Source: Planctomycetota bacterium (lineage in GTDB: Bacteria; Planctomycetota; Planctomycetia; Planctomycetales; Planctomycetaceae). Taken from it: a DNA stretch of 60,985 nt. The notes below the pieces were generated by a model that saw nothing but the letters and a program-made list of their open reading frames with translations, ran no database searches and was not told the DNA's origin. The position numbers and the translations under genes are program-made. Positions within the stretch are counted from its first letter, which is position 1; every line of letters begins with the position of its first letter. This document shows positions 60,515 to 60,985 of this stretch, piece by piece. The stretch is from contig VGZH01000029.1 in the NCBI GenBank assembly GCA_016872645.1, positions 1-60,985 on the forward strand, read 5' to 3'.

Positions 60515-60883
60515 ATGAGAAAAGTTTGGTTGAGTTCCCTGATGCTGACGGCTGCGCTTGGTTGTGGCCAAAACAGTACGCCTCCGGTGGCGAGCGATCC
60601 GCACGCCGCTGATCCGGCCAGTGCCGCCGTTGTCGACGAAGCTCTCCCGAAAGGGACGGTGCTGGTGACGCTCAAGTTGCCAGAGATGACCTGAGGCGGC
60701 TGTGCCGCTGCCGTGCGCAGCGATCTGGCGAATCTCGAAGGCGTTTCCAACGTCCAAACCGACCTCAAGAAGCGGACCTGCCAGTTCCATCTGGCGAACA
60801 AAGACCTGGACTTGAAAGCGAAGCTGACTGAATTGGCTCAAAGCAATGAACACATCAAAGGTTTCGAGATCGTCTCGCAATGA
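60515..60883 (+). CDS. Candidate selenoprotein: lipoprotein-like heavy-metal-associated (HMA) domain with in-frame TGA
   Basis: From the ATG at 60515 (AGGAG at 60501-60505 is its ribosome-binding site) the frame runs 59 codons, meets TGA at 60692-60694, and continues in sense to TGA at 60881-60883, giving 122 residues if the first TGA is read through. The N-terminus MRKVWLSSLMLTAALGC looks like a lipoprotein signal (Cys17). The rest is an HMA fold (MerP/CopZ-like): VLVTLKLPEMT-[TGA]-GGCAAAVRSDLANLEGVSNVQTDL. TGA sits at residue 60 where the first Cys of the metal-binding M-T-C-x-x-C should be; the second Cys is present. Selenocysteine is the best reading. A Cys-to-stop mutation or sequencing error is the alternative. 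Confidence 0.78.
60706..60722 (+). promoter_or_regulatory. Candidate bacterial SECIS hairpin
   Basis: CGCTGC (60706-60711) and GCAGCG (60717-60722) form a perfect 6-bp stem with the 5-base loop CGUGC. The loop G at position 2 lies 18-19 bases after the in-frame TGA. This fits the general bacterial SECIS pattern: small loop with G near its 5' side, stem of 4 or more pairs, and loop 16-37 bases from the UGA. Confidence 0.6.
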
Positions 60884-60937
60884 TTCGGCGGCAGGTTTGC
60901 AACCTGCCCATCGATCTTGCCTGATCTCGAACTTGCC

Positions 60938-60985
60938 AAACAAACACAGCCCGGTCACCAAACGGTGTCCGGGCTGCTGTGTTTT
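60938..60985 (+). terminator. Strong intrinsic terminator at the window edge
   Basis: ACACAG-CCCGG-t-CACC pairs with GGTG-t-CCGGG-CTG(c)TGT around an AAAC loop (about 60944-60982), followed by TTTT. It is about 55 bases after the second TGA of the HMA gene, so the transcript is expected to extend through the readthrough frame. Confidence 0.75.

Follow-up and report, generated by a model that had tools for sequence, protein, structure and literature searches.

An in-frame TGA as a probable selenocysteine codon in a small HMA-domain lipoprotein gene of planctomycetes

The last gene of the window (the whole stretch of DNA analysed here, 60,985 nucleotides) very probably encoded a genuine selenoprotein, namely a small HMA-domain lipoprotein with an in-frame TGA in place of the first Cys of the metal-binding motif; the probability of this reading was put at about 0.93, a figure that applied to the selenoprotein and not to its metal. 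The original prediction had reached the same reading from the window alone, and it was now supported by a TGA conserved in 31/31 loci of a blind scan, coding selection after the TGA (pN/pS 0.29), the presence of sel genes, and a SECIS hairpin, the last of these being evidence beyond the original prediction.

The gene comprised 123 codons from its ATG to its terminal TGA (Table 1). Translation with TGA read as U gave one internal U only, at residue 60 within the motif MTUGGC, which confirmed the predicted in-frame TGA at the first Cys of the HMA signature, and the next stop was the terminal TGA. The codons in between continued the HMA pattern, as had also been predicted: PF00403 spanned residues 52-109 (E 2.5e-11; 44.3 bits versus a cut-off of 24.8, with U entered as C). 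The N-terminus resembled a lipoprotein signal (MRKVWLSSLMLTAALGC), and lipidation was predicted at Cys17 of the lipobox-like sequence LTAALGC; in alignment A5 (32 rows), Cys17 was C in 16/16 rows having a residue in that column, most of the other rows being trimmed there. The strong terminator proposed to follow the second TGA stood in part: a strong hairpin lay there (the window's final 55 bases gave -27.6 kcal/mol), but a consensus terminator scan of the window listed zero terminators on the + strand. The window was an entire contig (C29) of a 213-contig draft genome and ended in TTTT. An Rfam search gave no family over threshold in the window and, for L001, five weak matches, all to unrelated families.

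Table 1. Features of the putative selenoprotein gene and its 3' flank, in window positions
Feature	Position	Strand	Basis
Whole gene, HMA-domain lipoprotein, 122 residues, with probable selenocysteine as residue 60	60515..60883	+	Translation with TGA=U, Pfam
Predicted signal peptide, ending in lipobox-like LTAALGC, Cys17 being the presumed lipidated residue	60515..60565	+	Sequence inspection
HMA domain, beta-alpha-beta-beta-alpha-beta, residues 49-122	60659..60880	+	PF00403, AlphaFold2, structural matches
Internal TGA, probable selenocysteine U60, first residue of U-x-x-C metal motif	60692..60694	+	TGA in 31/31 blind-scan loci
Cys63, second residue of U-x-x-C	60701..60703	+	32/32 rows of A5
SECIS hairpin: 6-bp stem 60706-60711 with 60717-60722, loop CGUGC 60712-60716, 11 nt after UGA	60706..60722	+	
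Cys89, third Cys, start of strand 3	60779..60781	+	A5: C 28/32, A 3, V 1; position from AlphaFold2 model
Asn111 and His113 of conserved N-x-H, loop between helix 2 and strand 4	60845..60853	+	A5: N 31/32, H 30/32
Terminal stop TGA, not kept as TGA in orthologues	60881..60883	+	
Post-gene hairpin (arms within this span), probable terminator, at contig end	60942..60984	+	Absent from consensus scan list

The internal TGA was followed through a sample of 150 genomes of the family, 39 of which had a match to the protein at E<=0.001; 29 of the 150 carried a match with an internal TGA (translations viewed for all but G009, G077, and G120), and two TGA fell within the match row in G142 and G077. In the genus of the window, 9/11 genomes matched, the window's own included (no match in G083 and G144), and TGA occupied the codon in 9/9. 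Across the nine species of this genus, the internal codon never varied, whereas the terminal stop was mixed (three TGA, two TAG, and four TAA), and purifying selection was evident after the TGA (pooled pN/pS 0.29; median dN/dS 0.20 over 36 pairs). A blind scan of a named genome collection aligned only the residues after U, leaving the codon itself invisible to the search: 215 stretches fitted the pattern, 31 passed tblastn, and the preceding codon was TGA in 31/31 and Cys in 0/31, with a pattern that required [GR]GC directly after U and that CPIC-type Cys forms would escape. The titles of these 31 loci named planctomycetes in 29 cases and a 'bacterium' only in two. Three of the 29 planctomycete titles (L106, L108, and L111) read Candidatus Kuenenia stuttgartiensis, and these names were probably wrong (mislabelled bins). 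The TGA gene was present, together with SelA and tRNA-Sec, in Planctomycetes bacterium K23_9 (L119; CP036526.1, a chromosome titled complete genome), a cultured organism. Two loci of the blind scan departed from the rest: L134 met a further stop 39 codons on, its frame looking broken, and both L131 and L134 were without the usual start. UGA conservation in orthologues with coding conservation on both sides was thus found, as expected of a bacterial selenoprotein; the relatives, in which either Cys or TGA had been envisaged at the codon, carried TGA throughout these two sets (9/9 and 31/31), and the degradation after the TGA that would have spoken for a dead gene was seen in L134 as the one exception.

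The genome of the window (G000) contained the whole set of selenocysteine genes named in the original prediction as a check: SelA on C27 (519.5 bits), SelB on C36 (333.5 bits), SelD on C23 (297 bits), and tRNA-Sec on C16 (75.3 bits, anticodon TCA). In the family sample, SelB was over its cut-off in 26/29 genomes with a TGA match versus 34/121 others (Fisher 1.1e-9); the three TGA-match genomes with SelB not over the cut-off (G014, G049, and G078) had SelA and SelD, and SelD was below its cut-off in G122, a genome with the TGA gene, SelA, and SelB. tRNA-Sec scored at least 65 bits in 23 of the 29, matched weakly in G103 (55.0 bits) and G078 (49.1 bits), and did not exceed the gathering score of 47 in G056, G148, G124, and G127 even with wider scoring; all six of these low or absent cases had SelA or SelB. 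Scores near 50 were not telling, as G061 (50.0) and G007 (48.1) reached them without SelA. G056 and G148 had SelA, SelB, SelD, and the TGA gene yet no tRNA-Sec over that gathering score, the tRNA gene being either absent from the assembly or divergent. In a phylum sample of 392 genomes, 53 had a match and SelA was searched in 29 of the 53: it was present in 11/11 genomes with a TGA match (translations inspected for five of the 11) versus 8/18 without, the 18 being part of 40 matching genomes without TGA and including two of the window's family. The SelD of the window's genome (L074, C23:9115-10047) lay inside a 753-aa open frame, which suggested a domain fusion; in the 16 other genomes having SelD over the cut-off, the open frame was 647-879 aa long.

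The hairpin after the TGA consisted of a six-pair stem closing a five-nt loop, in which positions 2 and 3 were GU, and its 11-nt spacer equalled that of the Escherichia coli fdhF SECIS. It was compared across 47 loci (31 from the blind scan plus 16 picked for carrying TGA) on about 37 distinct contigs, giving 30 distinct 33-mers; the window sequence set the pairing register, which the remaining sequences then tested. In this fixed register, pairing far exceeded that under synonymous recoding: (i) 175/180 positions versus 105.8±6.3 in the 30 distinct 33-mers (0 of 20,000 recodings), (ii) 93/96 pairs versus 53.8±4.5 in an earlier set of 16 loci, and (iii) 40/42 pairs versus 23.8±3.0 in seven divergent representatives. 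In two stem pairs, both partners varied. At the Arg codon, the silent base tracked its partner, being C with Ala in 6/6 (CGC) and A or G with Ser in 24/24 (CGA/CGG/AGA; Fisher 1.7e-6, with related sequences counted as separate), and one codon earlier, the silent base of Ala was complementary to base 1 of the Ser, Gly, or Arg codon in 30/30. In alignment A4 (10 distinct rows), 95.0% of cells paired versus 81.4% after shuffling (0 of 500), and the covariation score was 0.411 versus 0.150 (0 of 500), all slid registers scoring lower; two of the five measures in A4, the number of pairs with both partners changed (391/500) and that of further pair types (450/500), were no higher than in shuffles. 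In the nine species of the genus, the nine codons directly following the TGA were letter-identical, versus 7/54 of the remaining codons (4.8e-7). Compensatory changes, some of them at silent sites, preserve the hairpin.

Folding gave a less uniform picture than pairing in the fixed register. The minimum free energy (MFE) structure of the 22-mer contained the hairpin in 30/30 distinct sequences, and that of the 33-mer lacked it in 7/30, including sequences of the window's genus, in which a competing hairpin had the lowest energy; z-scores of folding energy against synonymous recoding were uninformative (mean -0.91 after the TGA, -0.69 in the upstream control, and +0.26 downstream). The bacterial SECIS (bSECIS) model, as given in the accessible part of a recent review, has a stem of 4-16 bp, an apical loop of 3-9 nt, a G in the first two loop places, and a distance of 16-37 nt from the UGA (PMC13188914, Fig. 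2 legend). The planctomycete hairpin, lying directly downstream of the UGA, fitted these values for stem, loop, G, and distance with no substantial difference seen from known bSECIS elements as that part of the review describes them, and 28/30 distinct sequences reached the limit of -7.5 kcal/mol as 22-mers.

Homologues aligning Cys with the UGA were found in two places: an MTCPIC paralogue in G056, a genome that also had the TGA gene, and a related lipoprotein subfamily with MTCGAGC versus MTUGAGC in two species of one genus. The G056 paralogue (L138; C270:1-4000, match 1075-1422 on the - strand) was 44% identical to the window protein (E 4.1e-26), which falls inside the span of values for Sec relatives from other genera, and its stem was mostly missing (2/6 pairs, counted by eye). 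G007 and G061 carried Cys-type CPISC lipoproteins (MNCPISC); SelA had no match there, and neither SelB nor SelD was over its cut-off. A tree built on 47 rows, with 73 columns only, placed the G056 paralogue, the G007/G061 CPISC proteins, and 31 Sec rows in one supported clade (96/91), the inner forks of which were mostly open, giving poor inner resolution; these close Cys forms may be either old paralogues or losses of Sec. The description of the family as obligately Sec was dropped, given the Cys relatives in the same clade and a scan pattern blind to CPIC forms. L078 fell outside the clade on a long branch and was retained in the hairpin counts (5/6 pairs).

Several further loci were recorded beside these relatives. 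L103 (G283) and L081 (G324), from two species of one genus and with near-identical surroundings, had TGA and TGT at the codon, respectively, a natural Sec/Cys swap in genomes that both had SelA. L017-L023, L025, L026, and L028 made up a second, more divergent lipoprotein group with TGA at the first Cys (MTUGGCRA, MTUAGC, and similar); several of them (such as L018, L019, and L025) had a stem after the TGA stronger than in synonymous recodings, and others did not. In L030 (G142, match 1501-1821), a further related lipoprotein, the single motif MHUPAGU contained two in-frame TGA.

An AlphaFold2 model built from 32 sequences had 66 residues with pLDDT >= 90 and block means of 86-95 from residue 51 on, with strands at 49-54, 77-83, 88-93, and 118-121 and helices at 61-72 and 100-110; this modelled fold, together with the Pfam score above the gathering cut-off, assigned the protein to the HMA domains. 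The structural matches were HMA domains as well, among them ATP7B 6a71 (Z 9.8, rmsd 1.9, 72 aligned) and MerP 1osd (Z 9.5, rmsd 2.1, 72 aligned). In the model, Sec60 sat in the loop before helix 1 and Cys63 at the start of this helix, while the positions of Cys89 and N-x-H, by HMA topology, flanked the metal loop. We read these residues as a putative soft-metal site that includes Sec. Cu(I) was the first choice for the bound metal, with somewhat less than an even chance, because the profile's best matches were copper carriers and a His in the equivalent last loop is known from cyanobacterial Atx1 (ScAtx1); Hg(II) or Ag(I) came next, and redox use of the Sec-Cys pair third.

Outside the genus of the window, no neighbouring gene kept a steady place and orientation, and none pointed to a metal; several shared neighbour clusters, sulfatase-like by eye, recurred at scattered places. 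Within the genus, an SBP56 gene followed at about 0.3-0.9 kb in five named loci, and Pfam confirmed the gene in one of these. Reversed, the end of contig C20 (L136) was identical to the final 127 bases of the window (60859-60985), as expected for an assembly-graph overlap, and C20 had SBP56 near its end, about 0.7 kb past the overlap. Because of this identity, and because C20 was colinear with the relatives through the gap into SBP56, the TGA gene and SBP56 are almost certainly adjacent in the window's genome too. SBP56 was present in 6/19 genomes examined; all six belonged to the window's genus and carried the TGA gene. A shared operon of the TGA gene and SBP56 was considered but not adopted, given the strong hairpin between the two genes and the confinement of SBP56, among the genomes examined, to one genus. 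The SBP56 of Hyphomicrobium is a periplasmic methanethiol oxidase that depends on Cu, and a gene for the copper chaperone SCO1/SenC lies beside its own (PMC5739008); a copper-supply role is worth testing for this reason.

Two readings would deny selenocysteine at the codon. The TGC-to-TGA sequencing or assembly error that the original prediction had named as the main rival, or equally a recent nonsense mutation leaving a pseudogene, drew on the TGA being one base from a Cys codon in a 213-contig draft; its probability is now negligible, because independent assemblies share the TGA (31/31 blind-scan loci, 9/9 genus orthologues, and the K23_9 chromosome) and homologues other than L134 are intact after it, with purifying selection persisting there. 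The TGA might instead be a programmed stop, so that a short lipopeptide is made, or be reassigned genome-wide to another amino acid, and the selenoprotein reading does give one signal two meanings in the 3/9 species, the window's included, whose terminal stop is also TGA; this alternative is nonetheless very improbable, since the downstream codons are under purifying selection, the terminal stop of orthologues varies and the internal one never does, and TGA matches follow the Sec machinery. On these same grounds, pseudogene and genome-wide TGA reassignment were both rejected. In the preferred selenoprotein reading, the UGA would be decoded by SelB and tRNA-Sec under the direction of the hairpin starting 11 nt downstream, as its conservation and covariation suggest, and the product would be a small secreted HMA protein with a predicted lipid anchor, with Sec60-x-x-Cys63 on the metal loop and, on the modelled fold, Cys89 and His113 contributed by neighbouring elements. 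By analogy with Atx1, CopZ, and MerP, it would most likely bind a soft metal tightly at the cell envelope and then pass it on or buffer it.

What such a protein does with selenium was weighed among three proposals, each doubtful. As a selenium-dependent metallochaperone, it would hold Sec as a permanent Cu(I) ligand (with Cys63, Cys89, and His113) and not as a catalytic residue, Sec being kept in every blind-scan locus of the UxxC type (GGC), and in the genus of the window the SBP56-family protein encoded alongside may receive copper from it; taken whole, this is an unlikely combination, which if true would link selenium, copper, and sulfur metabolism. The Sec-Cys pair might serve redox chemistry instead of metal binding (thiol-disulfide exchange, or reduction of peroxides or methylthiols): bacterial selenoproteins commonly have UxxC as a redox motif (PMC2398784, PMC13188914). 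Against this rather improbable use, the fold is that of HMA and not thioredoxin-like, conservation extends to a third Cys and a His, which by HMA topology flank the metal loop, and the sequence neighbours are Cu and Hg proteins. A sponge for Hg(II) or Ag(I), a MerP-like detoxification exploiting the affinity of selenium for mercury, is likewise to be regarded as unlikely: all 32 members of A5 matched the MerP model TIGR02052 at E<=0.001 and MerP structures were among the structural matches, but the window protein scored 30.7 bits against a cut-off of 92.55, no merT- or merA-like neighbour was recognised in the neighbourhood lists (first residues, by eye), and many planctomycetes retain the gene with no constant neighbour beside it.

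Most selenoproteins of known function are oxidoreductases (PMC2398784). A conserved family that has the fold of a metal carrier and a SECIS backed by compensatory silent changes would be a clean system in which to ask whether selection can favour Sec as a metal ligand, and the chromosome of K23_9 makes the question testable. Where annotation takes UGA only for a stop, the gene would end after residue 59 or go unnoticed, and because of this, selenium use by planctomycetes is probably under-counted.

Selenocysteine in HMA/MerP-type proteins is of a known kind, and the claim to this effect in the original prediction was partly borne out: the accessible part of the Global Ocean Sampling selenoproteome lists a Sec-containing MerP with two sequences and 0 Cys homologues in its data set (PMC2398784, Table 2), and that of a 2026 review lists a UxxU metal-binding family, a mercuric transport protein, and a UxxC E1-E2 ATPase (PMC13188914). 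Selenoproteins of planctomycetes are also already known as such, as the available text of PMC4807772 indicates. The family having a lipoprotein signal, UxxC, a third Cys, and N-x-H was not found described in literature listings or in the accessible text of PMC13188914, PMC9312934, PMC2398784, PMC1088965, and PMC4807772, and a text search of PMC12013277 and PMC5029168 gave no mention of such a family; an earlier report is possible, Haft 2023 and Haft 2025 (cited in PMC13188914) being the likeliest places.

The 32 members of A5 matched 13 NCBIfam families at E<=0.001, all of them related HMA families and none equal to the planctomycete family. Besides MerP, the window protein stayed far below the cut-offs of three models: (i) CopZ (NF033795), 34.4 bits versus 91; (ii) NF041115 (UxxU_metal_bind, metal-binding (seleno)protein), 31.3 bits versus 95, with 28/32 members matching at E<=0.001; and (iii) NF045683 (MerT/CopZ fusion-like heavy metal transport selenoprotein), 24.7 bits versus 375, with 24/32 members matching at E<=0.001. 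NF041115 shares a metal-binding domain with Sec in its motif, but it has two Sec (UxxU) where the planctomycete protein would have one Sec and one Cys (UxxC). NF045683 is likewise a selenoprotein with a CopZ-like domain, but it has 235 positions and, by its name, a MerT part, whereas here a single HMA domain stands behind a lipoprotein signal. The Sec-containing MerP of the Global Ocean Sampling data is alike in being an HMA/MerP-type protein with Sec; the present protein is a planctomycete lipoprotein with UxxC, a third Cys, and N-x-H, the accessible text on that MerP giving neither motif nor organism. With the Atx1, CopZ, and MerP metallochaperones and the metal-binding domains of ATP7B, the planctomycete protein shares the fold and the position of the metal motif, and it differs from them in the probable Sec replacing the first Cys, the predicted lipid anchor, and the conserved His in the last loop.
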